Shown here: positions 1 to 55,734 of the stretch, piece by piece
Numbering within the stretch: the stretch's first letter is position 1
Layout: every line of letters begins with the position of its first letter
From: Crossaster papposus
Lineage: Eukaryota; Echinodermata; Asteroidea; Velatida; Solasteridae
Direction: 5' to 3'
DNA length: 64,000 bases
Assembly (NCBI GenBank): GCA_037893245.1
Contig: JBAIAA010000599.1
Span: forward strand, 434,001-498,000
Made by a program: the position numbers and the translations under genes
The notes under the pieces: model-generated
The model's input: only the letters and a program-made list of their open reading frames with translations
What the model was told of the DNA's origin: nothing
The model's database searches: none

Positions 1-18
1 TCCCATCACAGTGTTACA

Positions 19-72: not shown

Positions 73-128
73 GTGAGAGCAGTCACTGTGCTGAGCAGAA
101 TAGTGAGTGTTCCCATCACAGTGTGACT

Positions 129-21416: not shown

Positions 21417-24400
21417 GCGAGAGCATTCACTTTGTTGAGCAAAATAGTGTGTTCCAGTCACAGTATGACTAAGAGCAGTCACTGTGCTGAACAGAATAGT
21501 GAGTGTTCCCATCACAGTGTGACTGCGAGAGCAGTCACTGTGCAGAGCAGAATAGTGAGTATTCCCATCACAGTGTTACAGAGAGCAGTCAATGTGCTGA
21601 GCAGAATAGCAAGTGTTCACATCACAGTGTGACTGAGAGCAGTCACTGTGCTGATCAGAATAGTGAGTGTTCACATCACTATGTGACTGAGAGCTGTCAT
21701 TGTGCTGAACAGAATAGTGAGTGTTCCCACAACAGTGTGACTGAGAGCAGTCATTATGCTGAGCAGAATAGTGAGTGTTCCAATCACAGTATGGCTAAGA
21801 GCAGTCACTCTGCTGAGCAGAATATTGAGTGTTCCCATCACAGTGTGACTGAGAGCTATCGTTGTGCTGAACAGAATAGTGAGTGTTCCCACCACAGTGT
21901 GACTGAGAGCAGTCACTGTGCTGAGCAGAATAGTAAGTGTTCCCATCACAGTGTGACTGTGAGAGCATTCACTGTGCTGAGCAGAATAGTGAGTGTTCCC
22001 GTTACAGTGTGACTGAGAGCTCTCTCTGTGCTGAGCAAAATATTGAGTGTTCCCATCACAGTGTGACTGAGAGCAGTCACTGTGCTGAACAGAATAGTGA
22101 GTGTTCCCATCACAGTGTGACTGAAAGCTGTCATTGTGCTGAACAGAATAGTGAGTGTTCCCACAACAGTGTGACTGAGAGCAGTCATTATGCTGAGCAG
22201 AATAGTGAGTGTTCCAATCACAGTATGGCTAAGAGCAGTCACTCTGCTGAGCAGAATATTGAGTGTTCCCATCACAGTGTGACTGAGAGCTATCGTTGTG
22301 CTGAACAGAATAGTGAGTGTTCCCACCACAGTGTGACTGAGAGCAGTCACTGTGCTGAGCAGAATAGTAAGTGTTCCCATCACAGTGTGACTGTGAGAGC
22401 ATTCACTGTGCTGAGCAGAATAATGAGTGTTCCCGTCACAGTGTGACTGAGAGCTCTCATTGTGCTGAGCAGAATAGTGAGTGTTCCCATCACAGTGTGA
22501 CTGAGAGCAGTCACTGTGCTGAGCAAAATAGTGAGTGTTCCCATCACAGTGTGAGTGAGAGCAGTCACTGTGCTGGACAGAATAGTGAGTGTTCCCATCA
22601 CAGTGTGACTGAGAGCTGTCAATGTGCTGAGCAGAATAGTAAGTGTTCACATCACAGTGTGGCTGAGAGCAGTCACTGTGCTGAGCAGAATAGTGAGTGT
22701 TCCCATCACAGTGTGACTACGAGGGCATTCACTGTGCAGAGCAGAATAGTGAGTGTTCCCATCACAGTGTGACTGGGAGCAGTCACTGTGCTGAACATAA
22801 TAGTGAGTGTTCCCATCACAGTGTGACTGCGAGAGCATTCACTGTGCAGAGCAGAATAGTGAGTGTTCCCATCACAGTGTTACACAGAGCAGTCACTGTG
22901 CTGAGCAGAATAGTGAGAGTTCCCATCACAATGTGACTGTGAGAGCAGTCACTGTGCTGAGCAGAATAGTGAGTGTTCCCATCACAGTGTGACTGTGAGA
23001 GCATTCACTGTGCTGAGCAGAATAGTGAGTGTTCCCGTTACAGTGTGACTGAGAGCTCTCACTGTGCTGAGCAAAATAGTGAGTGTTCCCATCACAGTGT
23101 GAGTGAGAGCAGTCACTGTGCTGGACAGAATAGTGAGTGTTCCCATCACAGTGTGACTGAGAGCTGTCAATGTGCTGAGCAGAATAGTAAGTGTTCACAT
23201 CACAGTGTGGCTGAGAGCAGTCACTGTGCTGAGCAGAATAGTGAGTGTTCCCATCACAGTGTGACTACGAGGGCATTCACTGTGCAGAGCAGAATAGTGA
23301 GTGTTCCCATCACAGTGTGACTGAGAGCAGTCACTGTGCTGAACATAATAGTGAGTGTTCCCATCACAGTGTGACTGCGAGAGCATTCACTGTGCAGAGC
23401 AGAATAGTGAGTGTTCCCATCACAGTGTTACACAGAGCAGTCACTGTGCTGAGCAGAATAGTGAGAGTTCCCATCACAATGTGACTGTGAGAGCAGTCAC
23501 TGTGCTGAGCAGAATAGTGAGTGTTCCCATCACAGTGTGACTGTGAGAGCATTCACTGTGCTGAGCAGAATAGTGAGTGTTCCCATCACAGTGTGACTGA
23601 GAGCAGTCACTGTGCTGAGCAAAATAGTGAGTGTTCCCATCACAGTGTGACTGAGAGCAGTCACTGTGCTGAACAGAATAGTGAGTGTTCCAATCACAGT
23701 GTGACTGTGAGAGCATTCACTGTGCTGAGCAGAATAGTGAGTGTTCCCATCACAGTGTGACTGAGAGCTGTCATTGTGCTGAACAGAATAGTGAGTGTTC
23801 CCACAACAGTGTGACTGAGAGCAGTCATTATGCTGAGCAGAATAGTGAGTGTTCCAATCACAGTATGGCTAAGAGCAGTCACTCTGCTAAGCAGAATATT
23901 GAGTGTTCCCATCACAGTGTGACTGAGAGCTATCGTTGTGCTGAACAGAATAGTGAGTGTTCCCACCACAGTGTGACTGAGAGCAGTCACTGTGCTGAGC
24001 AGAATAGTAAGTGTTCCCATCACAGTGTGACTGTGAGAGCATTCACTGTGCTGAGCAGAATAATGAGTGTTCCCGTCACAGTGTGACTGAGAGCTCTCAT
24101 TGTGCTGAGCAGAATAGTGAGTGTTCCCATCACAGTGTGACTGAGAGCAGTCACTGTGCTGAGCAAAATAGTGAGTGTTCCCATCACAGTGTGAGTGAGA
24201 GCAGTCACTGTGCTGGACAGAATAGTGAGTGTTCCCATCACAGTGTGACTGAGAGCTGTCAATGTGCTGAGCAGAATAGTAAGTGTTCACATCACAGTGT
24301 GGCTGAGAGCAGTCACTGTGTTGAACATAATAGTGAGTGTTCCCATCACAGTGTGACTGCGAGAGCATTCACTGTGCAGAGCAGAATAGTGAGTGTTCCC

Positions 24401-25070
24401 ATCACAGTGTTACACAGAGCAGTCACTGTGCTGAGCAGAATAGTGAGTGTTCCCATCACAATGTGACTGTAAGAGCAGTCACTGTGCTGAGCAGAATAGT
24501 GAGTGTTCCCATCACAGTGTGACTGTGAGAGCATTCACTGTGCTGAGCAGAATAGTGAGTGTTCCCGTTACAGTGTGACTGAGAGCTCTCACTGTGCTGA
24601 GCAGAAGAGTGAGTGTTCCCATCACAGTGTGACTGAGAGCAGTCACTGTGCTGAGCAAATCAGTGAGTGTTCCCATCACAGTGTGACTGAGAGCAGTCAC
24701 TGTGCTGAACAGAATAGTGAGTGTTCCAATCACAGTGTGACTGTGAGAGCATTCACTGTGCTGAGCAGAATAGTGAGTGTTCCCGTTACAGTGTGACTGA
24801 GAGCTCTCACTGTGCTGAGCAGAATAGTGAGTGTTCCCATCACAGTGTTACAGAGAGCAGTCACTGTGCTGAGCAGAATAGTGAGTGTGCCCATCACAGT
24901 GTGACTATGAGAGCAGTCACTGTGCTGAGCAGAATAGTGAGTGTTCACATCACAGTGCGACTGAGAGCAGTCACTGTGCTGAACAGAATAGTGAGTGTTC
25001 CAATCACAGTGTGACTGAGAGCAGTCACTGTGCAGAGCAGAATAGTGAGTGTTCCCATCACAGTGTGACT
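21417..25070. repeat. HOR unit, 3,654 bp, composite
   Basis: Three N modules and three W monomers (22879, 23427, 24409). The first two W monomers are 548 bp apart and mark a local tandem duplication. Private GACTGGGAGC (22771) and GTGAGAGTTCCC (~22916 and ~23464) recur in the copy 13,244 bp downstream. Confidence 0.86.
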
Positions 25071-28000
25071 GCGAGAGCATTCACTTTGTTGAGCAAAATA
25101 GTGTGTTCCAGTCACAGTATGACTAAGAGCAGTCACTGTGCTGAACAGAATAGTGAGTGTTCCCATCACAGTGTGACTGCGAGAGCAGTCACTGTGCAGA
25201 GCAGAATAGTGAGTATTCCCATCACAGTGTTACAGAGAGCAGTCAATGTGCTGAGCAGAATAGCAAGTGTTCACATCACAGTGTGAATGAGAGCAGTCAC
25301 TGTGCTGATCAGAATAGTGAGTGTTCACATCACTATGTGACTGAGAGCTGTCATTGTGCTGAACAGAATAGTGAGTGTTCCCACAACAGTGTGACTGAGA
25401 GCAGTCATTATGCTGAGCAGAATAGTGAGTGTTCCAATCACAGTATGGCTAAGAGCAGTCACTCTGCTGAGCAGAATATTGAGTGTTCCCATCACAGTGT
25501 GACTGAGAGCTATCGTTGTGCTGAACATAATAGTGAGTGTTCCCACCACAGTGTGACTGAGAGCAGTCACTGTGCTGAGCAGAATAGTAAGTGTTCCCAT
25601 CACAGTGTGACTGTGAGAGCATTCACTGTGCTGAGCAGAATAGTGAGTGTTCCCGTTACAGTGTGACTGAGAGCTCTCTCTGTGCTGAGCAAAATATTGA
25701 GTGTTCCCATCACAGTGTGACTGAGAGCAGTCACTGTGCTGAACAGAATAGTGAGTGTTCCCATCACAGTGTGACTGAGAGCTGTCATTGTGCTGAACAG
25801 AATAGTGAGTGTTCCCACAACAGTGTGACTGAGAGCAGTCATTATGCTGAGCAGAATAGTGAGTGTTCCAATCACAGTATGGCTAAGAGCAGTCACTCTG
25901 CTGAGCAGAATATTGAGTGTTCCCATCACAGTGTGACTGAGAGCTATCGTTGTGCTGAACAGACTAGTGAGTGTTCCCACCACAGTGTGACTGAGAGCAG
26001 TCACTGTGCTGAGCAGAATAGTAAGTGTTCCCATCACAGTGTGACTGTGAGAGCATTCACTGTGCTGAGCAGAATAATGAGTGTTTCCGTCACAGTGTGA
26101 CTGAGAGCTCTCATTGTGCTGAGCAGAATAGTGAGTGTTCCCATCACAGTGTGACTGAGAGCAGTCACTGTGCTGAGCAAAATAGTGAGTGTTCCCATCA
26201 CAGTGTGAGTGAGAGCAGTCACTGTGCTGGACAGAATAGTGAGTGTTCCCATCACAGTGTGACTGAGAGCTGTCAATGTGCTGAGCAGAATAGTAAGTGT
26301 TCACATCACAGTGTGGCTGAGAGCAGTCACTGTGCTGAGCAGAATAGTGAGTGTTCCCATCACAGTGTGACTACGAGGGCATTCACTGTGCAGAGCAGAA
26401 AAGTGAGTGTTCCCATCACAGTGTGACTGAGAGCAGTCACTGTGCTGAACATAATAGTGAGTGTTCCCATCACAGTGTGACTGCGAGAGCATTCACTGTG
26501 CAGAGCAGAATAGTGAGTGTTCCCATCACAGTGTTACACAGAGCAGTCACTGTGCTGAGCAGAATAGTGAGTGTTCCCATCACAATGTGACTGTGAGAGC
26601 AGTCACTGTGATGAGCAGAATAGTGAGTGTTCCCGTTACAGTGTGACTGAGAGCTCTCACTGTGCTGAGCAGAAGAGTGAGTGTTCCCATCACAGTGTGA
26701 CTGAGAGCAGTCACTGTGCTGAGCAAAATAGTGAGTGTTCCCATCACAGTGTGACTGAGAGCAGTCACTGTGCTGAACAGAATAGTGAGTGTTCCAATCA
26801 CAGTGTGACTGTGAGAGCATTCACTGTGCTGAGCAGAATAGTGAGTGTTCCCATCACAGTGTGACTGAGAGCTGTCATTGTGCTGAACAGAATAGTGAGT
26901 GTTCCCACAACAGTGTGACTGAGAGCAGTCATTATGCTGAGCAGAATAGTGAGTGTTCCAATCACAGTATGGCTAAGAGCAGTCACTCTGCTGAGCAGAA
27001 TATTGAGTGTTCCCATCACAGTGTGACTGAGAGCTATCGTTGTGCTGAACAGAATAGTGAGTGTTCCCACCACAGTGTGACTGAGAGCAGTCACTGTGCT
27101 GAGCAGAATAGTAAGTGTTCCCATCACAGTGTGACTGTGAGAGCATTCACTGTGCTGAGCAGAATAATGAGTGTTCCCGTCACAGTGTGACTGAGAGCTC
27201 TCATTGTGCTGATCAGAATAGTGAGTGTTCCCATCACAGTGTGACTGAGAGCAGTCACTGTGCTGAGCAAAATAGTGAGTGTTACCATCACAGTGTGAGT
27301 GAGAGCAGTCACTGTGCTGGACAGAATAGTGAGTGTTCCCATCACAGTGTGACTGAGAGCTGTCAATGTGCTGAGCAGAATAGTAAGTGTTCACATCACA
27401 GTGTGGCTGAGAGCAGTCACTGTGTTGAACATAATAGTGAGTGTTCCCATCACAGTGTGACTGCGAGAGCATTCACTGTGCAGAGCAGAATAGTGAGTGT
27501 TCCCATCACAGTGTTACACAGAGCAGTCACTGTGCTGAGCAGAATAGTGAGTGTTCCCATCACAATGTGACTGTAAGAGCAGTCACTGTGCTGAGCAGAA
27601 TAGTGAGTGTTCCCATCACAGTGTGACTGTGAGAGCATTCACTGTGCTGAGCAGAATAGTGAGTGTTCCCGTTACAGTGTGACTGAGAGCTCTCACTGTG
27701 CTGAGCAGAAGAGTGAGTGTTCCCATCACAGTGTGACTGAGAGCAGTCACTGTGCTGAGCAAATCAGTGAGTGTTCCCATCACAGTGTGACTGAGAGCAG
27801 TCACTGTGCTGAACAGAATAGTGAGTGTTCCAATCACAGTGTGACTGTGAGAGCATTCACTGTGCTGAGCAGAATAGTGAGTGTTCCCGTTACAGTGTGA
27901 CTGAGAGCTCTCACTGTGCTGAGCAGAATAGTGAGTGTTCCCATCACAGTGTTACAGAGAGCAGTCACTGTGCTGAGCAGAATAGTGAGTGTGCCCATCA

Positions 28001-28174
28001 CAGTGTGACTATGAGAGCAGTCACTGTGCTGAGCAGAATAGTGAGTGTTCACATCACAGTGCGACTGAGAGCAGTCACTGTGCTGAACAGAATAGTGAGT
28101 GTTCCAATCACAGTGTGACTGAGAGCAGTCACTGTGCAGAGCAGAATAGTGAGTGTTCCCATCACAGTGTGACT
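25071..28174. repeat. HOR unit, 3,104 bp
   Basis: Defines the 3,104-bp tandem pair with sequence on both sides. Contains GTGTGAATGAGAGC (~25283), AGCAGAAAAGTGAG (~26395), ACTGTGATGAGC (~26606) and GAGCAAATCAGTGAG (~27757). W is at 26533 and 27513. Confidence 0.86.
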
Positions 28175-31100
28175 GCGAGAGCATTCAGTTTGTTGAGCAA
28201 AATAGTGTGTTTCAGTCACAGTATGACTAAGAGCAGTCACTGTGCTGAACAGAATAGTGAGTGTTCCCATCACAGTGTGACTGCGAGAGCAGTCACTGTG
28301 CAGAGCAGAATAGTGAGTATTCCCATCACAGTGTTACAGAGAGCAGTCAATGTGCTGAGCAGAATAGCAAGTGTTCACATCACAGTGTGAATGAGAGCAG
28401 TCACTGTGCTGATCAGAATAGTGAGTGTTCACATCACTATGTGACTGAGAGCTGTCATTGTGCTGAACAGAATAGTGAGTGTTCCCACAACAGTGTGACT
28501 GAGAGCAGTCATTATGCTGAGCAGAATAGTGAGTGTTCCAATCACAGTATGGCTAAGAGCAGTCACTCTGCTGAGCAGAATATTGAGTGTTCCCATCACA
28601 GTGTGACTGAGAGCTATCGTTGTGCTGAACATAATAGTGAGTGTTCCCACCACAGTGTGACTGAGAGCAGTCACTGTGCTGAGCAGAATAGTAAGTGTTC
28701 CCATCACAGTGTGACTGTGAGAGCATTCACTGTGCTGAGCAGAATAGTGAGTGTTCCCGTTACAGTGTGACTGAGAGCTCTCTCTGTGCTGAGCAAAATA
28801 TTGAGTGTTCCCATCACAGTGTGACTGAGAGCAGTCACTGTGCTGAACAGAATAGTGAGTGTTCCCATCACAGTGTGACTGAGAGCTGTCATTGTGCTGA
28901 ACAGAATAGTGAGTGTTCCCACAACAGTGTGACTGAGAGCAGTCATTATGCTGAGCAGAATAGTGAGTGTTCCAATCACAGTATGGCTAAGAGCAGTCAC
29001 TCTGCTGAGCAGAATATTGAGTGTTCCCATCACAGTGTGACTGAGAGCTATCGTTGTGCTGAACAGAATAGTGAGTGTTCCCACCACAGTGTGACTGAGA
29101 GCAGTCACTGTGCTGAGCAGAATAGTAAGTGTTCCCATCACAGTGTGACTGTGAGAGCATTCACTGTGCTGAGCAGAATAATGAGTGTTTCCGTCACAGT
29201 GTGACTGAGAGCTCTCATTGTGCTGAGCAGAATAGTGAGTGTTCCCATCACAGTGTGACTGAGAGCAGTCACTGTGCTGAGCAAAATAGTGAGTGTTCCC
29301 ATCACAGTGTGAGTGAGAGCAGTCACTGTGCTGGACAGAATAGTGAGTGTTCCCATCACAGTGTGACTGAGAGCTGTCAATGTGCTGAGCAGAATAGTAA
29401 GTGTTCACATCACAGTGTGGCTGAGAGCAGTCACTGTGCTGAGCAGAATAGTGAGTGTTCCCATCACAGTGTGACTACGAGGGCATTCACTGTGCAGAGC
29501 AGAAAAGTGAGTGTTCCCATCACAGTGTGACTGAGAGCAGTCACTGTGCTGAACATAATAGTGAGTGTTCCCATCACAGTGTGACTGCGAGAGCATTCAC
29601 TGTGCAGAGCAGAATAGTGAGTGTTCCCATCACAGTGTTACACAGAGCAGTCACTGTGCTGAGCAGAATAGTGAGTGTTCCCATCACAATGTGACTGTGA
29701 GAGCAGTCACTGTGATGAGCAGAATAGTGAGTGTTCCCGTTACAGTGTGACTGAGAGCTCTCACTGTGCTGAGCAGAAGAGTGAGTGTTCCCATCACAGT
29801 GTGACTGAGAGCAGTCACTGTGCTGAGCAAAATAGTGAGTGTTCCCATCACAGTGTGACTGAGAGCAGTCACTGTGCTGAACAGAATAGTGAGTGTTCCA
29901 ATCACAGTGTGACTGTGAGAGCATTCACTGTGCTGAGCAGAATAGTGAGTGTTCCCATCACAGTGTGACTGAGAGCTGTCATTGTGCTGAACAGAATAGT
30001 GAGTGTTCCCACAACAGTGTGACTGAGAGCAGTCATTATGCTGAGCAGAATAGTGAGTGTTCCAATCACAGTATGGCTAAGAGCAGTCACTCTGCTGAGC
30101 AGAATATTGAGTGTTCCCATCACAGTGTGACTGAGAGCTATCGTTGTGCTGAACAGAATAGTGAGTGTTCCCACCACAGTGTGACTGAGAGCAGTCACTG
30201 TGCTGAGCAGAATAGTAAGTGTTCCCATCACAGTGTGACTGTGAGAGCATTCACTGTGCTGAGCAGAATAATGAGTGTTCCCGTCACAGTGTGACTGAGA
30301 GCTCTCATTGTGCTGATCAGAATAGTGAGTGTTCCCATCACAGTGTGACTGAGAGCAGTCACTGTGCTGAGCAAAATAGTGAGTGTTACCATCACAGTGT
30401 GAGTGAGAGCAGTCACTGTGCTGGACAGAATAGTGAGTGTTCCCATCACAGTGTGACTGAGAGCTGTCAATGTGCTGAGCAGAATAGTAAGTGTTCACAT
30501 CACAGTGTGGCTGAGAGCAGTCACTGTGCTGAGCAGAATAGTGAGTGTTCCCATCACAGTGTGACTACGAGGGCATTCACTGTGCAGAGCAGAATAGTGA
30601 GTGTTCCCATCACAGTGTGACTGAGAGCAGTCACTGTGCTGAACATAATAGTGAGTGTTCCCATCACAGTGTGACTGCGAGAGCATTCACTGTGCAGAGC
30701 AGAATAGTGAGTGTTCCCATCACAGTGTTACACAGAGCAGTCACTGTGCTGAGCAGAATAGTGAGTGTTCCCATCACAATGTGACTGTGAGAGCAGTCAG
30801 TGTGCTGAGCAGAATAGTGAGTGTTCCCATCACAGTGTGACTGTGAGAGCATTCACTGTGCTGAGCAGAATAGTGAGTGTTCCCGTTACAGTGTGACTGA
30901 GAGCTCTCACTGTGCTGAGCAGAAGAGTGAGTGTTCCCATCACAGTGTGACTGAGAGCAGTCACTGTGCTGAGCAAAATAGTGAGTGTTCCCATCACAGT
31001 GTGACTGAGAGCAGTCACTGTGCTGAACAGAATAGTGAGTGTTCCAATCACAGTGTGACTGTGAGAGCATTCACTGTGCTGAGCAGAATAGTGAGTGTTC

Positions 31101-31388
31101 CCGTTACAGTGTGACTGAGAGCTCTCACTGTGCTGAGCAGAATAGTGAGTGTTCCCATCACAGTGTTACAGAGAGCAGTCACTGTGCTGAGCAGAATAGT
31201 GAGTGTGCCCATCACAGTGTGACTATGAGAGCAGTCACTGTGCTGAGCAGAATAGTGAGTGTTCACATCACAGTGCGACTGAGAGCAGTCACTGTGCTGA
31301 ACAGAATAGTGAGTGTTCCAATCACAGTGTGACTGAGAGCAGTCACTGTGCAGAGCAGAATAGTGAGTGTTCCCATCACAGTGTGACT
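28175..31388. repeat. HOR unit, 3,214 bp
   Basis: Z reads CATTCAGTTTG and GTGTTTCAGTC. The first ~2.3 kb repeat 25,071-27,4xx at offset 3,104. GAGTGTTACCATC (~30387) and GAGAGCAGTCAGTGTG (~30791) are private markers shared with the copy 15,586 bp downstream. W is at 29637 and 30727. Confidence 0.86.
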
Positions 31389-34300
31389 GCGAGAGCATTC
31401 ACTTTGTTGAGCAAAATAGTGTGTTCCAGTAACAGTATGACTAAGAGCAGTCACTGTGCTGAACAGAATAGTGAGTGTTCCCATCACAGTGTGACTGCGA
31501 GAGCAGTCACTGTGCAGAGCAGAATAGTGAGTATTCCCATCACAGTGTTACAGAGAGCAGTCAATGTGCTGAGCAGAATAGCAAGTGTTCACATCACAGT
31601 GTGACTGAGAGCAGTCACTGTGCTAATCAGAATAGTGAGTGTTCACATCACTATGTGACTGAGAGCTGTCATTGTGCTGAACAGAATAGTGAGTGTTCCC
31701 ACAACAGTGTGACTGAGAGCAGTCATTATGCTGAGCAGAATAGTGAGTGTTCCAATCACAGTATGGCTAAGAGCAGTCACTCTGCTGAGCAGAATATTGA
31801 GTGTTCCCATCACAGTGTGACTGAGAGCTATCGTTGTGCTGAACAGAATAGTGAGTGTTCCCACCACAGTGTGACTGAGAGCAGTCACTGTGCTGAGCAG
31901 AATAGTGAGTGTTCCCGTTACAGTGTGACTGAGAGCTCTCTCTGTGCTGAGCAAAATATTGAGTGTTCCCATCACAGTGTGACTGAGAGCAGTCACTGTG
32001 CTGAACAGAATAGTGAGTGTTCCCATCACAGTGTGACTGAGAGCTGTCATTGTGCTGAACAGAATAGTGAGTGTTCCCACAACAGTGTGACTGAGAGCAG
32101 TCATTATGCTGAGCAGAATAGTGAGTGTTCCAATCACAGTATAGCTAAGAGCAGTCACTCTGCTGAGCAGAATATTGAGTGTTCCCATCACAGTGTGACT
32201 GAGAGCTATCGTTGTGCTGAACAGAATAGTGAGTGTTCCCACCACAGTGTGACTGAGAGCAGTCACTGTGCTGAGCAGAATAGTAAGTGTTCCCATCACA
32301 GTGTGACTGTGAGAGCATTCACTGTGCTGAGCAGAATAATGAGTGTTCCCGTCACAGTGTGACTGAGAGCTCTCATTGTGCTGAGCAGAATAGTGAGTGT
32401 TCCCATCACAGTGTGACTGAGAGCAGTCACTGTGCTGAGCAAAATAGTGAGTGTTCCCATCACAGTGTGAGTGAGAGCAGTCACTGTGCTGGACAGAATA
32501 GTGAGTGTTCCCATCACAGTGTGACTGAGAGCTGTCAATGTGCTGAGCAGAATAGTAAGTGTTCACATCACAGTGTGGCTGAGAGCAGTCACTGTGCTGA
32601 GCAGAATAGTGAGTGTTCCCATCACAGTGTGACTACGAGGGCATTCACTGTGCAGAGCAGAATAGTGAGTGTTCCCATCACAGTGTGACTGAGAGCAGTC
32701 ACTGTGCTGAACATAATAGTGAGTGTTCCCATCACAGTGTGACTGCGAGAGCATTCACTGTGCAGAGCAGAATAGTGAGTGTTCCCATCACAGTGTTACA
32801 CAGAGCAGTCACTGTGCTGAGCAGAATAGTGAGTGTTCCCATCACAATGTGACTGTGAGAGCAGTCACTGTGCTGGGCAGAATAGTGAGTGTTCCCATCA
32901 CAGTGTGACTATGAGAGCATTCACTGTGCTGAGCAGAATAGTGAGTGTTCCCGTTACAGTGTGACTGAGAGCTCTCACTGTGCTGAGCAGAAGAGTGAGT
33001 GTTCCCATCACAGTGTGACTGAGAGCAGTCACTGTGCTGAGCAAAATAGTGAGTGTTCCCATCACAGTGTGACTGAGAGCAGTCACTGTGCTGAACAGAA
33101 TAGTGAGTGTTCCAATCACAGTGTGACTGTGAGAGCATTGACTGTGCTGAGCAGAATAGTGAGTATTCCCATCACAGTGTGACTGAGAGCTGTCATTGTG
33201 CTGAACAGAATAGTGAGTGTTCCCACAACAGTGTGACTGAGAGCAGTCATTATGCTGAGCAGAATAGTGAGTGTTCCAATCACAGTATGGCTAAGAGCAG
33301 TCACTCTGCTGAGCAGAATATTGAGTGTTCCCATCACAGTGTGACTGAGAGCTATCGTTGTGCTGAACAGAATAGTGAGTGTTCCCACCACAGTGTGACT
33401 GAGAGCAGTCACTGTGCTGAGCAGAATAGTAAGTGTTTCCATCACAGTGTGACTGTGAGAGCATTCACTGTGCTGAGCAGAATAATGAGTGTTCCCGTCA
33501 CAGTGTGACTGAGAGCTCTCATTGTGCTGAGCAGAATAGTGAGTGTTCCCATCACAGTGTGACTGAGAGCAGTCACTGTGCTGAGCAAAATAGTGAGTGT
33601 TCCCATCACAGTGTGAGTGAGAGCAGTCACTGTGCTGGACAGAATAGTGAGTGTTCCCATCACAGTGTGACTGAGAGCTGTCAATGTGCTGAGCAGAATA
33701 GTAAGTGTTCACATCACAGTGTGGCTGAGAGCAGTCACTGTGCTGAGCAGAATAGTGAGTGTTCCCATCACAGTGTGACTACGAGGGCATTCACTGTGCA
33801 GAGCAGAATAGTGAGTGTTCCCATCACAGTGTGACTGAGAGCAGTCACTGTGCTGAACATAATAGTGAGTGTTCCCATCACAGTGTGACTGCGAGAGCAT
33901 TCACTGTGCAGAGCAGAATAGTGAGTGTTCCCATCACAGTGTTACACAGAGCAGTCACTGTGCTGAGCAGAATAGTGAGTGTTCCCATCACAATGTGACT
34001 GTGAGAGCAGTCACTGTGCTGAGCAGAATAGTGAGTGTTCCCATCACAGTGTGACTGTGAGAGCATTCACTGTGCTGAGCAGAATAGTGAGTTTTCCCGT
34101 TACAGTGTGACTGAGAGCTCTCACTGTGCTGAGCAGAAGAGTGAGTGTTCCCATCACAGTGTGACTGAGAGCAGTCACTGTGCTGAGCAAAATAGTGAGT
34201 GTTCCCATCACAGTGTGACTGAGAGCAGTCACTGTGCTGAACAGAATAGTGAGTGTTCCAATCACAGTGTGACTGTGAGAGCATTTACTGTGCTGAGCAG

Positions 34301-42600: not shown

Positions 42601-43760
42601 ATCACAGTGTGACTGAGAGCTATCGTTGTGCTGAACAGAATAGTGAGTGTTCCCACCACAGTGTGACTGAGAGCAGTCACTGTGCTGAGCAGAATAGTAA
42701 GTGTTCCCATCACAGTGTGACTGTGAGAGCATTCACTGTGCTGAGCAGAATAATGAGTGTTCCCGTCACAGTGTGACTGAGAGCTTTCATTGTGCTGAGC
42801 AGAATAGTGAGTGTTCCCATCACAGTGTGACTGAGAGCAGTCACTGTGCTGAGCAAAATAGTGAGTGTTCCCATCACAGTGTGAGTGAGAGCAGTCACTG
42901 TGCTGGACAGAATAGTGAGTGTTCCCATCACAGTGTGACTGAGAGCTGTCAATGTGCTGAGCAGAATAGTAAGTGTTCACATCACAGTGTGGCTGAGAGC
43001 AGTCACTGTGTTGAACATAATAGTGAGTGTTCCCATCACAGTGTGACTGCGAGAGCATTCACTGTGCAGAGCAGAATAGTGAGTGTTCCCATCACAGTAT
43101 TACACAGAGCAGTCACTGTGCTGAGCAGAATAGTGAGTGTTCCCATCACAATGTGACTGTGAGAGCAGTCACTGTGCTGAGCAGAATAGTGAGTGTTCCC
43201 ATCACAGTGTGACTGTGAGAGCATTCACTGTGCTGAGCAGAATAGTGAGTGTTCCCGTTACAGTGTGACTGAGAGCTCTCACTGTGCTGAGCAGAAGAGT
43301 GAGTGTTCCCATCACAGTGTGACTGAGAGCAGTCACTGTGCTGAGCAAATCAGTGAGTGTTCCCATCACAGTGTGACTGAGAGCAGTCACTGTGCTGAAC
43401 AGAATAGTGAGTGTTCCAATCACAGTGTGACTGTGAGAGCATTCACTGTGCTGAGCAGAATAGTGAGTGTTCCCGTTACAGTGTGACTGAGAGCTCTCAC
43501 TGTGCTGAGCAGAATAGTGAGTGTTCCCATCACAGTGTTACAGAGAGCAGTCACTGTGCTGAGCAGAATAGTGAGTGTGCCCATCACAGTGTGACTATGA
43601 GAGCAGTCACTGTGCTGAGCAGAATAGTGAGTTTTCACATCACAGTGCGACTGAGAGCAGTCACTGTGCTGAACAGAATAGTGAGTGTTCCAATCACAGT
43701 GTGACTGAGAGCAGTCACTGTGCAGAGCAGAATAGTGAGTGTTCCCATCACAGTGTGACT
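39621..43760. repeat. HOR unit, 4,140 bp, composite
   Basis: Contains a 1,090-bp tandem duplication (about 40.58-41.67 repeated at 41.67-42.76 kb), the second copy lacking one 54-bp N monomer near 42,490. W is at 41083, 42173 and 43099. CACCGTGCTGG is private to ~40771, ~41861 and ~44911. Confidence 0.86.
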
Positions 43761-46700
43761 GCGAGAGCATTCAGTTTGTTGAGCAAAATAGTGTGTTCCA
43801 GTCACAGTATGACTAAGAGCAGTCACTGTGCTGAACAGAATAGTGAGTGTTCCCATCACAGTGTGACTGCGAGAGCAGTCACTGTGCAGAGCAGAATAGT
43901 GAGTATTCCCATCACAGTGTTACAGAGAGCAGTCAATGTGCTGAGCAGAATAGCAAGTGTTCACATCACAGTGTGACTGAGAGCAGTCACTGTGCTGATC
44001 AGAATAGTGAGTGTTCACATCACTATGTGACTGAGAGCTGTCATTGTGCTGAACAGAATAGTGAGTGTTCCCACAACAGTGTGACTGAGAGCAGTCATTA
44101 TGCTGAGCAGAATAGTGAGTGTTCCAATCACAGTATGGCTAAGAGCAGTCACTCTGCTGAGCAGAATATTGAGTGTTCCCATCACAGTGTGACTGAGAGC
44201 TATCGTTGTGCTGAACATAATAGTGAGTGTTCCCACCACAGTGTGACTGAGAGCAGTCACTGTGCTGAGCAGAATAGTAAGTGTTCCCATCACAGTGTGA
44301 CTGTGAGAGCATTCACTGTGCTGAACAGAATAGTGAGTGTTCCCGTTACAGTGTGACTGAGAGCTCTCTCTGTGCTGAGCAAAATATTGAGTGTTCCCAT
44401 CACAGTGTGACTGAGAGCAGTCACTGTGCTGAACAGAATAGTGAGTGTTCCCATCACAGTGTGACTGAGAGCTGTCATTGTGCTGAACAGAATAGTGAGT
44501 GTTCCCACAACAGTGTGACTGAGAGCAGTCATTATGCTGAGCAGAATAGTGAGTGTTCCAATCACAGTATGGCTAAGAGCAGTCACTCTGCTGAGCAGAA
44601 TATTGAGTGTTCCCATCACAGTGTGACTGAGAGCTATCGTTGTGCTGAACAGAATAGTGAGTGTTCCCACCACAGTGTGACTGAGAGCAGTCACTGTGCT
44701 GAGCAGAATAGTAAGTGTTCCCATCACAGTGTGACTGTGAGAGCATTCACTGTGCTGAGCAGAATAATGAGTGTTCCCGTCACAGTGTGACTGAGAGCTC
44801 TCATTGTGCTGAGCAGAATAGTGAGTGTTCCCATCACAGTGTGACTGAGAGCAGTCACTGTGCTGAGCAAAATAGTGAGTGTTCCCATCACAGTGTGAGT
44901 GAGAGCAGTCACCGTGCTGGACAGAATAGTGAGTGTTCCCATCACAGTGTGACTGAGAGCTGTCAATGTGCTGAGCAGAATAGTAAGTGTTCACATCACA
45001 GTGTGGCTGAGAGCAGTCACTGTGCTGAGCAGAATAGTGAGTGTTCCCATCACAGTGTGACTACGAGGGCATTCACTGTGCAGAGCAGAATAGTGAGTGT
45101 TCCCATCACAGTGTGACTGAGAGCAGTCACTGTGCTGAACATAATAGTGAGTGTTCCCATCACAGTGTGACTGCGAGAGCATTCACTGTGCAGAGCAGAA
45201 TAGTGAGTGTTCCCATCACAGTGTTACACAGAGCAGTCACTGTGCTGAGCAGAATAGTGAGTGTTCCCATCACAATGTGACTGTGAGAGCAGTCACTGTG
45301 ATGAGCAGAATAGTGAGTGTTCCCGTTACAGTGTGACTGAGAGCTCTCACTGTGCTGAGCAGAAGAGTGAGTGTTCCCATCACAGTGTGACTGAGAGCAG
45401 TCACTGTGCTGAGCAAAATAGTGAGTGTTCCCATCACAGTGTGACTGAGAGCAGTCACTGTGCTGAACAGAATAGTGAGTGTTCCAATCACAGTGTGACT
45501 GTGAGAGCATTCACTGTGCTGAGCAGAATAGTGAGTGTTCCCATCACAGTGTGACTGAGAGCTGTCATTGTGCTGAACAGAATAGTGAGTGTTCCCACAA
45601 CAGTGTGACTGAGAGCAGTCATTATGCTGAGCAGAATAGTGAGTGTTCCAATCACAGTATGGCTAAGAGCAGTCACTCTGCTGAGCAGAATATTGAGTGT
45701 TCCCATCACAGTGTGACTGAGAGCTATCGTTGTGCTGAACAGAATAGTGAGTGTTCCCACCACAGTGTGACTGAGAGCAGTCACTGTGCTGAGCAGAATA
45801 GTAAGTGTTCCCATCACAGTGTGACTGTGAGAGCATTCACTGTGCTGAGCAGAATAATGAGTGTTCCCGTCACAGTGTGACTGAGAGCTCTCATTGTGCT
45901 GATCAGAATAGTGAGTGTTCCCATCACAGTGTGACTGAGAGCAGTCACTGTGCTGAGCAAAATAGTGAGTGTTACCATCACAGTGTGAGTGAGAGCAGTC
46001 ACTGTGCTGGACAGAATAGTGAGTGTTCCCATCACAGTGTGACTGAGAGCTGTCAATGTGCTGAGCAGAATAGTAAGTGTTCACATCACAGTGTGGCTGA
46101 GAGCAGTCACTGTGCTGAGCAGAATAGTGAGTGTTCCCATCACAGTGTGACTACGAGGGCATTCACTGTGCAGAGCAGAATAGTGAGTGTTCCCATCACA
46201 GTGTGACTGAGAGCAGTCACTGTGCTGAACATAATAGTGAGTGTTCCCATCACAGTGTGCCTGCGAGAGCATTCACTGTGCAGAGCAGAATAGTGAGTGT
46301 TCCCATCACAGTGTTACACAGAGCAGTCACTGTGCTGAGCAGAATAGTGAGTGTTCCCATCACAATGTGACTGTGAGAGCAGTCAGTGTGCTGAGCAGAA
46401 TAGTGAGTGTTCCCATCACAGTGTGACTGTGAGAGCATTCACTGTGCTGAGCAGAATAGTGAGTGTTCCCGTTACAGTGTGACTGAGAGCTCTCACTGTG
46501 CTGAGCAGAAGAGTGAGTGTTCCCATCACAGTGTGACTGAGAGCAGTCACTGTGCTGAGCAAAATAGTGAGTGTTCCCATCACAGTGTGACTGAGAGCAG
46601 TCACTGTGCTGAACAGAATAGTGAGTGTTCCAATCACAGTGTGACTGTGAGAGCATTCACTGTGCTGAGCAGAATAGTGAGTGTTCCCGTTACAGTGTGA

Positions 46701-46974
46701 CTGAGAGCTCTCACTGTGCTGAGCAGAATAGTGAGTGTTCCCATCACAGTGTTACAGAGAGCAGTCACTGTGCTGAGCAGAATAGTGAGTGTGCCCATCA
46801 CAGTGTGACTATGAGAGCAGTCACTGTGCTGAGCAGAATAGTGAGTGTTCACATCACAGTGCGACTGAGAGCAGTCACTGTGCTGAACAGAATAGTGAGT
46901 GTTCCAATCACAGTGTGACTGAGAGCAGTCACTGTGCAGAGCAGAATAGTGAGTGTTCCCATCACAGTGTGACT
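43761..46974. repeat. HOR unit, 3,214 bp
   Basis: Same length as 28175-31388 and collinear with it at offset 15,586. Private changes include GTGTGCCTGCGAG near 46257 and GCTGAACAGAATAG in a 56-mer near 44322. W is at 45223 and 46313. Confidence 0.86.
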
Positions 46975-47842
46975 GCGAGAGCATTCACTTTGTTGAGCAA
47001 AATAGTGTGTTCCAGTAACAGTATGACTAAGAGCAGTCACTGTGCTGAACAGAATAGTGAGTGTTCCCATCACAGTGTGACTGCGAGAGCAGTCACTGTG
47101 CAGAGCAGAATAGTGAGTATTCCCATCACAGTGTTACAGAGAGCAGTCAATGTGCTGAGCAGAATAGCAAGTGTTCACATCACAGTGTGACTGAGAGCAG
47201 TCACTGTGCTAATCAGAATAGTGAGTGTTCACATCACTATGTGACTGAGAGCTGTCATTGTGCTGAACAGAATAGTGAGTGTTCCCACAACAGTGTTACT
47301 GAGAGCAGTCATTATGCTGAGCAGAATAGTGAGTGTTCCAATCACAGTATGGCTAAGAGCAGTCACTCTGCTGAGCAGAATATTGAGTGTTCCCATCACA
47401 GTGTGACTGAGAGCTATCGTTGTGCTGAACAGAATAGTGAGTGTTCCCACCACAGTGTGACTGAGAGCAGTCACTGTGCTGAGCAGAATAGTAAGTGTTC
47501 CCATCACAGTGTGACTGTGAGAGCATTCACTGTGCTGAGCAGAATAGTGAGTGTTCCCGTTACAGTGTGACTGAGAGCTCTCTCTGTGCTGAGCAAAATA
47601 TTGAGTGTTCCCATCACAGTGTGACTGAGAGCAGTCACTGTGCTGAACAGAATAGTGAGTGTTCCCATCACAGTGTGACTGAGAGCTGTCATTGTGCTGA
47701 ACAGAATAGTGAGTGTTCCCACAACAGTGTGACTGAGAGCAGTCATTATGCTGAGCAGAATAGTGAGTGTTCCAATCACAGTGTGACTGAGAGCAGTCAC
47801 TGTGCAGAGCAGAATAGTGAGTGTTCCCATCACAGTGTGACT
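46975..47842. repeat. HOR unit, 868 bp
   Basis: Two N blocks and no W. It ends with an early return to the CAGAGC and Z monomers. Z reads GTTCCAGTAACAG here, in the next unit and at 31389. Together with the 56-bp difference noted at 31.9 kb it accounts for the 924-bp offset step. Confidence 0.86.
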
Positions 47843-50800
47843 GCGAGAGCATTCACTTTGTTGAGCAAAATAGTGTGTTCCAGTAACAGTATGACTAAGA
47901 GCAGTCACTGTGCTGAACAGAATAGTGAGTGTTCCCATCACAGTGTGACTGCGAGAGCAGTCACTGTGCAGAGCAGAATAGTGAGTATTCCCATCACAGT
48001 GTTACAGAGAGCAGTCAATGTGCTGAGCAGAATAGCAAGTGTTCACATCACAGTGTGACTGAGAGCAGTCACTGTGCTAATCAGAATAGTGAGTGTTCAC
48101 ATCACTATGTGACTGAGAGCTGTCATTGTGCTGAACAGAATAGTGAGTGTTCCCACAACAGTGTGACTGAGAGCAGTCATTATGCTGAGCAGAATAGTGA
48201 GTGTTCCAATCACAGTATGGCTAAGAGCAGTCACTCTGCTGAGCAGAATATTGAGTGTTCCCATCACAGTGTGACTGAGAGCTATCGTTGTGCTGAACAG
48301 AATAGTGAGTGTTCCCACCACAGTGTGACTGAGAGCAGTCACTGTGCTGAGCAGAATAGTAAGTGTTCCCATCACAGTGTGACTGTGAGAGCATTCACTG
48401 TGCTGAGCAGAATAGTGAGTGTTCCCGTTACAGTGTGACTGAGAGCTCTCTCTGTGCTGAGCAAAATATTGAGTGTTCCCATCACAGTGTGACTGAGAGC
48501 AGTCACTGTGCTGAACAGAATAGTGAGTGTTCCCATCACAGTGTGACTGAGAGCTGTCATTGTGCTGAACAGAATAGTGAGTGTTCCCACAACAGTGTGA
48601 CTGAGAGCAGTCATTATGCTGAGCAGAATAGTGAGTGTTCCAATCACAGTATGGCTAAGAGCAGTCACTCTGCTGAGCAGAATATTGAGTGTTCCCATCA
48701 CAGTGTGACTGAGAGCTATCGTTGTGCTGAACAGAATAGTGAGTGTTCCCACCACAGTGTGACTGAGAGCAGTCACTGTGCTGAGCAGAATAGTAAGTGT
48801 TCCCATCACAGTGTGACTGTGAGAGCATTCACTGTGCTGAGCAGAATAATGAGTGTTCCCGTCACAGTGTGACTGAGAGCTCTCATTGTGCTGAGCAGAA
48901 TAGTGAGTGTTCCCATCACAGTGTGACTGAGAGCAGTCACTGTGCTGAGCAAAATAGTGAGTGTTCCCATCACAGTGTGAGTGAGAGCAGTCACTGTGCT
49001 GGACAGAATAGTGAGTGTTCCCATCACAGTGTGACTGAGAGCTGTCAATGTGCTGAGCAGAATAGTAAGTGTTCACATCACAGTGTGGCTGAGAGCAGTC
49101 ACTGTGCTGAGCAGAATAGTGAGTGTTCCCATCACAGTGTGACTACGAGGGCATTCACTGTGCAGAGCAGAATAGTGAGTGTTCCCATCACAGTGTGACT
49201 GAGAGCAGTCACTGTGCTGAACATAATAGTGAGTGTTCCCATCACAGTGTGACTGCGAGAGCATTCACTGTGCAGAGCAGAATAGTGAGTGTTCCCATCA
49301 CAGTGTTACACAGAGCAGTCACTGTGCTGAGCAGAATAGTGAGTGTTCCCATCACAATGTGACTGTGAGAGCAGTCACTGTGCTGGGCAGAATAGTGAGT
49401 GTTCCCATCACAGTGTGACTATGAGAGCATTCACTGTGCTGAGCAGAATAGTGAGTGTTCCCGTTACAGTGTGACTGAGAGCTCTCACTGTGCTGAGCAG
49501 AAGAGTGAGTGTTCCCATCACAGTGTGACTGAGAGCAGTCACTGTGCTGAGCAAAATAGTGAGTGCTCCCATCACAGTGTGACTGAGAGCAGTCACTGTG
49601 CTGAACAGAATAGTGAGTGTTTCAATCACAGTGTGACTGTGAGAGCATTGACTGTGCTGAGCAGAATAGTGAGTGTTCCCATCACAGTGTGACTGAGAGC
49701 TGTCATTGTGCTGAACAGAATAGTGAGTGTTCCCACAACAGTGTGACTGAGAGCAGTCATTATGCTGAGCAGAATAGTGAGTGTTCCAATCACAGTATGG
49801 CTAAGAGCAGTCACTCTGCTGAGCAGAATATTGAGTGTTCCCATCACAGTGTGACTGAGAGCTATCGTTGTGCTGAACAGAATAGTGAGTGTTCCCACCA
49901 CAGTGTGACTGAGAGCAGTCACTGTGCTGAGCAGAATAGTAAGTGTTCCCATCACAGTGTGACTGTGAGAGCATTCACTGTGCTGAGCAGAATAATGAGT
50001 GTTCCCGTCACAGTGTGACTGAGAGCTCTCATTGTGCTGAGCAGAATAGTGAGTGTTCCCATCACAGTGTGACTGAGAGCAGTCACTGTGCTGAGCAAAA
50101 TAGTGAGTGTTCCCATCACAGTGTGAGTGAGAGCAGTCACTGTGCTGGACAGAATAGTGAGTGTTCCCATCACAGTGTGACTGAGAGCTGTCAATGTGCT
50201 GAGCAGAATAGTAAGTGTTCACATCACAGTGTGGCTGAGAGCAGTCACTGTGCTGAGCAGAATAGTGAGTGTTCCCATCACAGTGTGACTACGAGGGCAT
50301 TCACTGTGCAGAGCAGAATAGTGAGTGTTCCCATCACAGTGTGACTGAGAGCAGTCACTGTGCTGAACATAATAGTGAGTGTTCCCATCACAGTGTGACT
50401 GCGAGAGCATTCACTGTGCAGAGCAGAATAGTGAGTGTTCCCATCACAGTGTTACACAGAGCAGTCACTGTGCTGAGCAGAATAGTGAGTGTTCCCATCA
50501 CAATGTGACTGTGAGAGCAGTCACTGTGCTGAGCAGAATAGTGAGTGTTCCCATCACAGTGTGACTGTGAGAGCATTCACTGTGCTGAGCAGAATAGTGA
50601 GTTTTCCCGTTACAGTGTGACTGAGAGCTCTCACTGTGCTGAGCAGAAGAGTGAGTGTTCCCATCACAGTGTGACTGAGAGCAGTCACTGTGCTGAGCAA
50701 AATAGTGAGTGTTCCCATCACAGTGTGACTGAGAGCAGTCACTGTGCTGAACAGAATAGTGAGTGTTCCAATCACAGTGTGACTGTGAGAGCATTTACTG

Positions 50801-51112
50801 TGCTGAGCAGAATAGTGAGTGTTCCCGTTACAGTGTGACTGAGAGCTCTCACTGTGCTGAGCAGAATAGTGAGTGTTCCCATCACAGTGTTACAGAGAGC
50901 AGTCACTGTGCTGAGCAGAATAGTGAGTGTGCCCATCACAGTGTGACTATGAGAGCAGTCACTGTGCTGAGCAGAATAGTGAGTGTTCACATCACAGTGC
51001 GACTGAGAGCAGTCACTGTGCTGAACAGAATAGTGAGTGTTCCAATCACAGTGTGACTGAGAGCAGTCACTGTGCAGAGCAGAATAGTGAGTGTTCCCAT
51101 CACAGTGTGACT
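47843..51112. repeat. HOR unit, 3,270 bp
   Basis: Collinear with 31389-34602 plus the 56-bp monomer missing there. Shares GTGCTGGGCAG (~49383) and GACTATGAGAGCATTC (~49417). GAGTGCTCCC (~49564) and GTTTCAATC (~49620) are private. W is at 49305 and 50451. Confidence 0.86.
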
Positions 51113-54045
51113 GCGAGAGCATTCACTTTGTTGAGCAGAATAGTGAGTGTTCCAATCACAGTATGGCTAAGAGCAGTCACTCTGCTGAGCAGAATATTGA
51201 GTGTTCCCATCACAGTGTGACTGAGAGCTATCGTTGTGCTGAACAGAATAGTGAGTGTTCCCACCACAGTGTGACTGAGAGCAGTCACTGTGCTGAGCAG
51301 AATAGTAAGTGTTCCCATCACAGTGTGACTGTGAGAGCATTCACTGTGCTGAGCAGAATAGTGAGTGTTCCCGTTACAGTGTGACTGAGAGCTCTCTCTG
51401 TGCTGAGCAAAATATTGAGTGTTCCCATCACAGTGTGACTGAGAGCAGTCACTGTGCTGAACAGAATAATGAGTGTTCCCATCACAGTGTGACTGAGAGC
51501 TGTCATTGTGCTGAACAGAATAGTGAGTGTTCCCACAACAGTGTGACTGAGAGCAGTCATTATGCTGAGCAGAATAGTGAGTGTTCCAATCACAGTATGG
51601 CTAAGAGCAGTCACTCTGCTGAGCAGAATATTGAGTGTTCCCATCACAGTGTGACTGAGAGCTATCGTTGTGCTGAACAGAATAGTGAGTGTTCCCACCA
51701 CAGTGTGACTGAGAGCAGTCACTGTGCTGAGCAGAATAGTAAGTGTTCCCATCACAGTGTGACTGTGAGAGCATTCACTGTGCTGAGCAGAATAATGAGT
51801 GTTCCCGTCACAGTGTGACTGAGAGCTCTCATTGTGCTGAGCAGAATAGTGAGTGTTCCCATCACAGTGTGACTGAGAGCAGTCACTGTGCTGAGCAAAA
51901 TAGTGAGTGTTCCCATCACAGTGTGAGTGAGAGCAGTCACTGTGCTGGACAGAATAGTGAGTGTTCCCATCACAGTGTGACTGAGAGCTGTCAATGTGCT
52001 GAGCAGAATAGTAAGTGTTCACATCACAGTGTGGCTGAGAGCAGTCACTGTGCTGAGCAGAATAGTGAGTGTTCCCATCACAGTGTGACTACGAGGGCAT
52101 TCACTGTGCAGAGCAAAATAGTGAGTGTTCCCATCACAGTGTGACTGAGAGCAGTCACTGTGCTGAACATAATAGTGAGTGTTCCCATCACAGTGTGACT
52201 GCGAGAGCATTCACTGTGCAGAGCAGAATAGTGAGTGTTCCCATCACAGTGTTACACAGAGCAGTCACTGTGCTGAGCATAATAGTGAGTGTTCCCATCA
52301 CAATGTGACTGTGAGAGCAGTCACTGTGCTGAGCAGAATAGTGAGTGTTCCCGTTACAGTGTGACTGAGAGCTCTCACTGTGCTGAGCAGAAGAGTGAGT
52401 GTTCCCATCACAGTGTGACTGAGAGCAGTCACTGTGCTGAGCAAAATAGTGAGTGTTCCCATCACAGTGTGACTGACAGCAGTCACTGTGCTGAACAGAA
52501 TAGTGAGTGTTCCAATCACAGTGTGACTGTGAGAGCATTGACTGTGCTGAGCAGAATAGTGAGTGTTCCCATCACAGTGTGACTGAGAGCTGTCATTGTG
52601 CTGAGCAGAATAATGAGTGTTCCCGTCACAGTGTGACTGAGAGCTCTCATTGTGCTGAGCAGAATAGTGAGTGTTCCCGTTACAGTGTGACTGAGAGCTC
52701 TCACTGTGCTGAGCAGAAGAGTGAGTGTTCCCATCACAGTGTGACTGAGAGCAGTCACTGTGCTGAGCAAAATAGTGAGTGTTCCCATCACAGTGTGACT
52801 GAGAGCTATCGTTGTGCTGAACAGAATAGTGAGTGTTCCCACCACAGTGTGACTGAGAGAGCATTGACTGTGCTGAGCAGAATAGTAAGTGTTCCCATCA
52901 CAGTGTGACTGTGAGAGCATTCACTGTGCTGAGCAGAATAATGAGTGTTTCCGTCACAGTGTGACTGAGAGCTCTCATTGTGCTGAGCAGAATAGTGAGT
53001 GTTCCCATCACAGTGTGACTGTGCTGAGCAAAATAGTGAGTGTTCCCATCACAGTGTGAGTGAGAGCAGTCACTGTGCTGGACAGAATAGTGAGTGTTCC
53101 CATCACAGTGTGACTGAGAGCTGTCAATGTGCTGAGCAGAATAGTAAGTGTTCACATCACAGTGTGGCTGAGAGCAGTCACTGTGCTGAGCAGAATAGTG
53201 AGTGTTCCCATCACAGTGTGACTACGAGGGCATTCACTGTGCAGAGCAGAATAGTGAGTGTTCCCATCACAGTGTGACTGAGAGCAGTCACTGTGCTGAA
53301 CATAATAGTGAGTGTTCCCATCACAGTGTGACTGCGAGAGCATTCACTGTGCAGAGCAGAATAGTGAGTGTTCCCATCACAGTGTTACACAGAGCAGTCA
53401 CTGTGCTGATCAGAATAGTGAGTGTTCCCATCACAATGTGACTGTGAGAGCAGTCACTGTGCTGAGCAGAATAGTGAGTGTTCCCATCACAGTGTGACTG
53501 TGAGAGCATTCACTGTGCTGAGCAGAATAGTGAGTTTTCCCGTTACAGTGTGACTGAGAGCTCTCACTGTGCTGAGCAGAAGAGTGAGTGTTCCCATCAC
53601 AGTGTGACTGAGAGCAGTCACTGTGCTGAGCAAAATAGTGAGTGTTCCCATCACAGTGTGACTGAGAGCAGTCACTGTGCTGAACAGAATAGTGAGTGTT
53701 CCAATCACAGTGTGACTGTGAGAGCATTCACTGTGCTGAGCAGAATAGTGAGTGTTCCCGTTACAGTGTGACTGAGAGCTCTCACTGTGCTGAGCAGAAT
53801 AGTGAGTGTTCCCATCACAGTGTTACAGAGAGCAGTCACTGTGCTGAGCAGAATAGTGAGTGTGCCCATCACAGTGTGACTATGAGAGCAGTCACTGTGC
53901 TGAGCAGAATAGTGAGTGTTCACATCACAGTGCGACTGAGAGCAGTCACTGTGCTGAACAGAATAGTGAGTGTTCCAATCACAGTGTGACTGAGAGCAGT
54001 CACTGTGCAGAGCAGAATAGTGAGTGTTCCCATCACAGTGTGACT
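51113..54045. repeat. HOR unit, 2,933 bp, odd length, rearranged
   Basis: It begins with the same hybrid Z as 34603. At 52,580-53,020 the normal order is scrambled: AATAATGAG, CCCGTTAC, GAGCAGAAGAG, AAAATAG and CTATCGTTG monomers follow each other, then GACTGAGAGAGCATTG (another route to 56 bp, ~52853). A 13-bp deletion at 53020/53021 makes the unit length odd. W is at 52251 and 53384. Confidence 0.86.
53011..53034 (+). other. 13-bp deletion breaking the even monomer register
   Basis: CAGTGTGACT is joined to GTGCTGAGCAAAATAG at 53020/53021. The usual sequence has GAGAGCAGTCACT between them. ACT at both edges of the lost bases suggests microhomology or slippage. The W-to-W distance across it is 1,133, which is 13 less than the recurrent 1,146. 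Confidence 0.9.
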
Positions 54046-55684: not shown

Positions 55685-55713
55685 TCACTGTGCTGAGCAG
55701 AATAGTGAGTGTT

Positions 55714-55734
55714 CCCATCGATCAAAGTGTGACT
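55714..55734 (+). other. GATC insertion creating ATCGAT, with the 13-bp deletion
   Basis: CCCATCACAGTGTGACT has become CCCATC, GATC, AAAGTGTGACT: four inserted bases plus one C-to-A change. It is followed at once by the same 13-bp deletion as at 53.02 kb. ATCGAT (55717-55722) is the only such hexamer I noticed in the window. Confidence 0.88.

Follow-up and report, generated by a model that had tools for sequence, protein, structure and literature searches.

The 64,000-nucleotide stretch of the sea star Crossaster papposus analyzed here (the window; contig JBAIAA010000599.1, positions 434,001 to 498,000, from the 1.02-Gb, 1,841-contig assembly GCA_037893245.1) is a single 54-bp satellite from end to end, and it contains a macro-duplication, in which two large collinear copies of one segment follow each other in direct orientation. 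The reading preferred here, at a probability of about 60%, is that a segment of ~10.1 kb was duplicated between two near-identical edge blocks, X_L and X_R, and that each copy then changed separately, including a 3.1-kb tandem step of its own. An earlier description of the window made from its letters alone, called the first-pass annotation below, had proposed that a complete ~13-kb segment was duplicated first and that the second copy was lengthened later.

Four consecutive diagonals join the two copies, at offsets of 13,244 bp (from 21,942 to 25,812, exact for 2,467 bp), 14,550 bp (24,507 to ~26,848, the match beyond being paralogous), 15,586 bp (26,903 to 31,858), and 16,510 bp (31,913 to 34,958). 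The first-pass annotation had claimed these offsets and had made its case depend on their continuity; both are borne out, with corrected edges (copy 1 ends at 34,958), and its figure of 3,266 bp for the size difference between the copies is right by arithmetic. In the 326 kb of gap-free sequence used for comparison (contig positions 180,001–506,000, window included), all 474 of the 60-base words that occur exactly twice and join the copies lie on the four offsets (222 on 13,244, 60 on 15,586, and 192 on 16,510). The same holds for 862 of 865 two-copy words of 100 bases, and the remaining three lie on 16,454. No two-copy words fall on the 14,550 diagonal; its sequence sits in several units, and its support comes from multi-copy repeats. 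None of 60 block shuffles of the window matched the observed collinearity: the best chain scored 11,064, compared to shuffle maxima of 3,073 (20-monomer blocks, n = 30) and 4,886 (40-monomer blocks, n = 30), and with the whole 326 kb shuffled ten times the highest score was 3,633. As an observation, the macro-duplication is confirmed.

The commonest offset in the window, counted over pairs of 60-base words present no more than six times, is 3,104 bp, and a tandem repeat of this period, overlooked in the first-pass annotation, lies inside copy 1. Its units, a and b, show six differences in 3,810 bp. Their counterparts in copy 2 are the a-type units a1, a2, and a3 (a' in composite) and the unit b2. 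Over a core of 2,398 bp, three positions separate a from b, compared to nine between a and a' and nine between b and b2. IQ-TREE, with two further stretches of the window as outgroups over part of the length, favors ((a,b),(a',b2)), and the pairing of a with a' and b with b2 is rejected by the approximately unbiased (AU) test (p-AU 0.00018 with one composite of a' and 0.00015 with another). Six informative sites (window positions 24,409 to 26,401) were polarized with similar contexts from the rest of the 326 kb as outgroup, 71 to 282 per site. Four sites (890, 1706, 2505, and 2820) carry a derived base in a and b only and two (828 and 2642) in a' and b2 only, and no core site is derived in a and a' only or in b and b2 only. 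Core words divide in the same way: 180 are found in a and b and nowhere else in the 326 kb, and 139 (43 + 36 + 60) are confined to copy-2 sets that hold b2 with an a-type unit, compared to none confined to a with a-type units of copy 2 and none to b with b2.

The junctions of the 3.1-kb repeats differ as well. Three sites, 308, 528, and 599, tell the left and right parents of the repeat apart; b has the right-parent base at all three, while b2 has the right-parent base at 308 and the left-parent base at 528 and 599. A single shared event would be expected to leave one junction; two separate exchanges within a homologous block of ~0.7 kb explain the difference simply, with conversion as the rival account. 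Site 308 is also common to a and a1, but its place is in the block of the left parent, and b and b2 both have the right-parent base there, so it says nothing about the order of events. Given the within-copy grouping and the differing junctions, the 3.1-kb step more likely followed the macro-duplication in each copy, or was homogenized in each, and the macro-unit more likely measured ~10,140 bp. An offset of this size (the 13-kb unit less 3,104) is among the commoner ones in the window, and the duplicated ancestor was probably ~10.1 kb long. One large direct duplication, as first claimed, is supported, and the complete ~13-kb segment as its unit is not, a and b being sisters, as are a' and b2. 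The grouping itself would reflect separate duplication in each copy and not gene conversion.

The tandem repeats of 1,306, 1,090 (less one 54-bp monomer), and 868 bp that had been claimed for copy 2 are real. Each shows one substitution, in runs of 1,326, 1,110, and 895 bp (divergence of 0.08–0.11%), and the proposed lengthening of copy 2 by three recent tandem events of ~1 kb is supported. The 868-bp run extends from 46,888 to 48,650. The 1,090-bp pair exists, but it had been placed at 40.58–42.76 kb, which is off by ~270 bp, and is found at 40,309–42,488. One further step had been counted as growth of copy 2. At 31,859–31,912, copy 1 has a single 54-bp monomer where copy 2 has two, of 54 and 56 bp. 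The single monomer looks fused, with a left part as in type 3 and a right end as in type 4*, and is one base off type 3; a point change in type 3 together with the loss of type 4* would give an identical look. Since the intact order has 15 exact occurrences in the 326 kb and the form shorter by 56 bp has two (in copy 1 and at contig position 383,200), a loss in copy 1 is more likely than growth of copy 2.

At the outer edges of the duplication, X_L and X_R differ at 6 of 1,198 bp, and copy 2 starts with a block identical to X_L in all 980 bases compared. Such blocks are what exchange or re-replication between them would be expected to leave behind. The direct orientation of the copies, their adjacency (bar a 218-bp spacer), and edge homology of 99.5% over 1,198 bp place the structure among homology-mediated tandem segmental duplications. 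The spacer, likewise overlooked in the first-pass annotation, matches at least 11 places elsewhere with one mismatch and, judged by monomer strings, is missing where copy 2 ends. In all, the macro-junction carries 382 bp extra (16,510 less 16,128), made up of the four spacer monomers and three repeated ones. A simple crossover would join the X blocks directly. The extra sequence suggests that the template was switched or that something later happened at this junction, and the spacer is a hint of template switching in the course of repair synthesis, away from simple crossover.

The preferred course of events can be pieced together as follows. The 54-bp array would grow by out-of-register recombination, and a segment of ~10.1 kb would have been duplicated in tandem when the near-identical ~1.2-kb blocks X_L and X_R took part in exchange or re-replication. 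Afterwards the 3,104-bp tandem repeat would have arisen in copy 1, which probably also lost 56 bp. In copy 2, a separate 3.1-kb repeat would have come first, followed by the steps of 1,306, 1,090 (less 54), and 868 bp. We infer both the order of these small steps and the molecular process behind them.

Several observations weigh against a ~10.1-kb duplication followed by separate 3.1-kb steps. The Kishino–Hasegawa and Shimodaira–Hasegawa tests against the between-copy pairing give 0.015, which is weaker than the AU result. The base shared by a and b at site 2505 is also present in 14 of 206 other contexts. At site 1503, the base in a agrees with all 106 contexts outside, and a change is common to b, a1, a2, and b2, a pattern echoed by 24 core words in {a1, a2, b, b2}; some conversion or a second change is therefore needed anyway. 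Both copies need the 3.1-kb step in the same register. Divergence between the copies is also uneven, with 9 differences in the 2,398-bp core compared to 7 in the 7,398 bp outside it (Fisher p = 0.0064, for segments picked post hoc and with bases 31,796–31,912 left out). This means that a single clock does not fit; the unevenness could come from later exchange between the copies, from conversion, or from the joining of two haplotypes. The loss of 56 bp in copy 1 is made uncertain by the second short form, at contig position 383,200, where exact likeness to copy 1 stops after 294 bp. Of course, the whole analysis rests on one assembly.

The history first proposed, in which the full ~13-kb segment with both 3.1-kb units was duplicated, copy 2 grew, and gene conversion later acted in each copy, seems rather doubtful. 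It readily gives the 3.1-kb unit the same register in both copies (offsets of 3,104 compared to 5,446, which is 3,104 + 1,306 + 1,036), and conversion or a second change is required at site 1503 regardless. The cost is long conversion tracts in both copies (sites 890–2820 in copy 1 and 828–2642 in copy 2) and another tract at the junction (sites 528–599), and its conversion-free tree is the one rejected by the AU test.

It is unlikely, though conceivable, that tandem steps prefer one phase of the monomer, around CAGAATAGTGAGTGTTCCCA across the monomer boundary, as they would at a recurrent break or replication barrier, and that each copy then independently repeated the 3.1-kb step. The midpoint falls in the last sixth of the monomer in 12 of 23 distinct tandem junctions, where 18% would do so by chance. 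Under a parent-conditional null, 13 of the 17 usable junctions lie in a zone chosen after looking, compared to 6.9 expected (P 0.002), and outside the window the same zone holds 9 of 12, compared to 4.7 expected (P 0.009). A second detector, which leans towards the phase result because it sees boundary junctions from two slots, gives 8 of 11 (4.25 expected) and, outside the window, 4 of 7 (P 0.28). Relaxed to four settings, it gives 39/110, 30/73, 45/112, and 30/61, compared to 30.0, 22.2, 34.1, and 17.1 expected, with P values outside the window of 0.017, 0.19, 0.023, and 0.0003 in the same order. The strength of the hotspot varies with the detector, and a phase preference of the junctions is not established.

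Another explanation, and an improbable one, is that the copies represent two homologous chromosomes joined by unequal exchange, so that their differences would be old, allelic, and variable along the segment. Such a joining accounts for the left 2,345 bp with no differences beside the core with nine, and it gives differing 3.1-kb junctions with no need for conversion, but satellite arrays are generally regarded as places where homologues seldom exchange. Slightly less probable still is an artefact in which the assembler duplicated or misjoined repeat reads: a 54-bp array with long near-identical repeats is a hard case for an assembler, but the copies are set apart by substitutions private to them and by three structural steps whose junctions are clean, and similar events of different ages occur throughout the 326 kb.

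Table 1. Positions, in the window, of the satellite, the two macro-copies, and the repeats and edge blocks discussed in the text.
Feature	Positions	Strand	Basis
54-bp satellite, 1,175 monomers	1..64000	.	wraparound alignment, Tandem Repeats Finder (TRF)
Block X_L, left edge of copy 1, candidate recombination substrate	21779..22976	.	99.5% identical to X_R
Copy 1 of macro-duplication	21942..34958	.	diagonals, two-copy words
Unit a of 3,104-bp repeat, copy 1	23581..26684	.	self-match blocks
Unit b of 3,104-bp repeat, copy 1	26685..29788	.	self-match blocks; partial third unit to 30,494
Fused-looking monomer in copy 1, 56 bp shorter than copy 2	31859..31912	.	offset diagonals, monomer strings
Spacer between copies, 218 bp, four monomers	34967..35184	.	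monomer strings
Copy 2 of macro-duplication	35186..51468	.	diagonals, two-copy words
Unit a1, copy 2, counterpart of a up to the 1,306-bp repeat	36825..39056	.	self-match blocks
1,306-bp tandem repeat, first member	37751..39056	.	self-match blocks, tandem runs
1,306-bp tandem repeat, second member	39057..40362	.	self-match blocks, tandem runs
1,090-bp tandem repeat, first member	40309..41398	.	self-match blocks, tandem runs
1,090-bp tandem repeat, second member; next 54-bp monomer missing	41399..42488	.	self-match blocks, monomer strings
Unit b2, copy 2, counterpart of b	42489..46080	.	self-match blocks
868-bp tandem repeat, first member	46903..47770	.	self-match blocks, monomer strings, tandem runs
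868-bp tandem repeat, second member	47771..48638	.	self-match blocks, monomer strings, tandem runs
Block X_R, right edge of copy 2	51151..52348	.	self-match blocks

The macro-duplication is not special within the array. Among the 22 chains listed when ungapped blocks were chained over the 326 kb, it ranks third. The first is a tandem duplication of 14,170 bp upstream of the window (contig positions 388,844–417,945), which is cleaner, with 5 substitutions in 14.9 kb, and has ~855 bp of homology at its junction; further chains have offsets of ~18.5–20.8, 10.1–10.4, 11.4–13.1, and 8.5–9.1 kb. Run length exceeds the period by 768 bp in the 3,104-bp repeat and by 855 bp in the 14,170-bp repeat. Across 41 tandem entries with a period of at least 300 bp, some of them copies of one junction, periods range from 489 to 3,927 bp, plus one of 14,170 bp, and junction homology is at most 58 bp in 32 and 101 to 2,378 bp in 9. 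Short- and long-homology steps thus both occur in the array. The macro-duplication is taken here as a by-product of array turnover, that is, as ordinary satellite growth that happens to be unusually legible. Gapped local alignment of monomer strings over the 326 kb was set aside, since cheap gaps let it wander between repeats.

In the window, wraparound alignment resolves 895 monomers of 54 bp, 277 of 56 bp, and three odd ones, with 170 distinct monomer sequences. The array has the properties of a higher-order repeat: 1,172 of the 1,175 head-to-tail monomers are of 54 or 56 bp, and multi-monomer blocks are 99.4–100% identical (110 of 200 blocks listed), compared to 87% matches at the 54-bp period in TRF. 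Satellite matches run from ~153.6 kb to ~965.7 kb of the contig (~812 kb) among the matches listed, and all of these (40 of 1,195 and 40 of 1,121 candidates scored) fall on this contig, though further sites may exist. Judged by monomer strings, the window holds two classes of higher-order pattern: an outer class at 1–20,700 and 59,900–64,000 (offset 57,717) encloses an inner one at 20,900–59,800, as if the inner domain had expanded inside the outer class. Two short monomers, at 53,003–53,043 (41 bp) and 55,713–55,757 (45 bp), lack by eye the loop of the hairpin and the greater part of its right arm, and each adjoins a block of shared odd monomers (offset ~2.7 kb). Three inserts break the satellite within the 326 kb. 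At contig positions 322,667–324,156 there is a reverse-transcriptase fragment (RVT_1 in two frames, E 9e-13 and 4e-13), at 254,857–267,583 a non-satellite insert of 12.7 kb with 37% guanine plus cytosine (GC), and at 430,758–432,910 a non-satellite insert of 2.15 kb with 61% GC and frames that by eye are repetitive and rich in arginine and serine.

The 54-bp consensus monomer carries, throughout the window, the dyad CACAG(TG)TGACTG-AGAG-CAGTCACTGTG, with 11 pairs, a 2-base bulge, and the loop AGAG. Single-strand DNA folding gives z values of -1.4 for the 54-mer (+ strand), -2.2 for the 56-mer, and -2.9 for the 54-mer (- strand). As far as the available sections of one source go, dyad symmetry is frequent, though not universal, in centromeric satellite monomers (PMC8997354). 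A protein-coding tandem repeat was considered and rejected because each of the 277 56-bp monomers shifts the frame; the longest open reading frame listed in the 64 kb has 369 amino acids. One of four proteins submitted to Pfam, a 294-amino-acid frame at 31,478–32,359, matches the suprabasin repeat family above the cut-off (E 1.9e-10, 40.9 bits compared to 31), which is likely a likeness of repetitive composition. No RNA family matched at gathering scores. Exact searches with a 51-base monomer pattern in a viral contig collection and a 40-base pattern in a genome contig collection found nothing, nor did a 1,601-bp satellite stretch match among plasmids, which says little since these collections hold no eukaryote genomes. 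No description of this 54-bp satellite was found in the literature searched by monomer strings and by repeat type.

The duplications recorded in the array differ in size and age and their junctions can be read, which lets models of exchange, conversion, and break-induced replication be tested site by site. There is also a lesson in the macro-duplication: an order of events inferred from collinearity alone misleads. Shared substitutions place the 3.1-kb step after the macro-duplication, or else they reveal strong homogenization inside each copy.

The human centromere offers the closest known comparison. In the available parts of two sources, alpha-satellite higher-order arrays resemble this one in that distinct monomers are co-amplified as near-identical larger units and that recent local amplification occurs inside an older array (PMC11062924, PMC8997354). 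The alpha-satellite differs in its monomer of ~171 bp, compared to 54 bp here, and the units here are of no fixed length. The unequal exchange model of satellite evolution reportedly goes back to Smith in 1976. In that model, as the portion at hand of one source describes it, out-of-register exchange produces tandem duplications and deletions, and the tandem steps and the fused-looking monomer fit (PMC8997354). The spacer of foreign monomers at the macro-junction, in contrast, is not the product of one simple crossover. A model based on break-induced replication is said to be due to Rice in 2020. There, according to the part of the same source that was available, out-of-register re-replication produces nested duplications, and a templated insert at the junction would fit (PMC8997354). 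Unequal exchange, conversion, saltatory amplification, and break-induced replication are all discussed for other satellites, at least in excerpts of the two sources (PMC11062924, PMC8997354). The Crossaster macro-duplication is therefore a further case of a known kind of satellite growth, with one instructive correction to its history.

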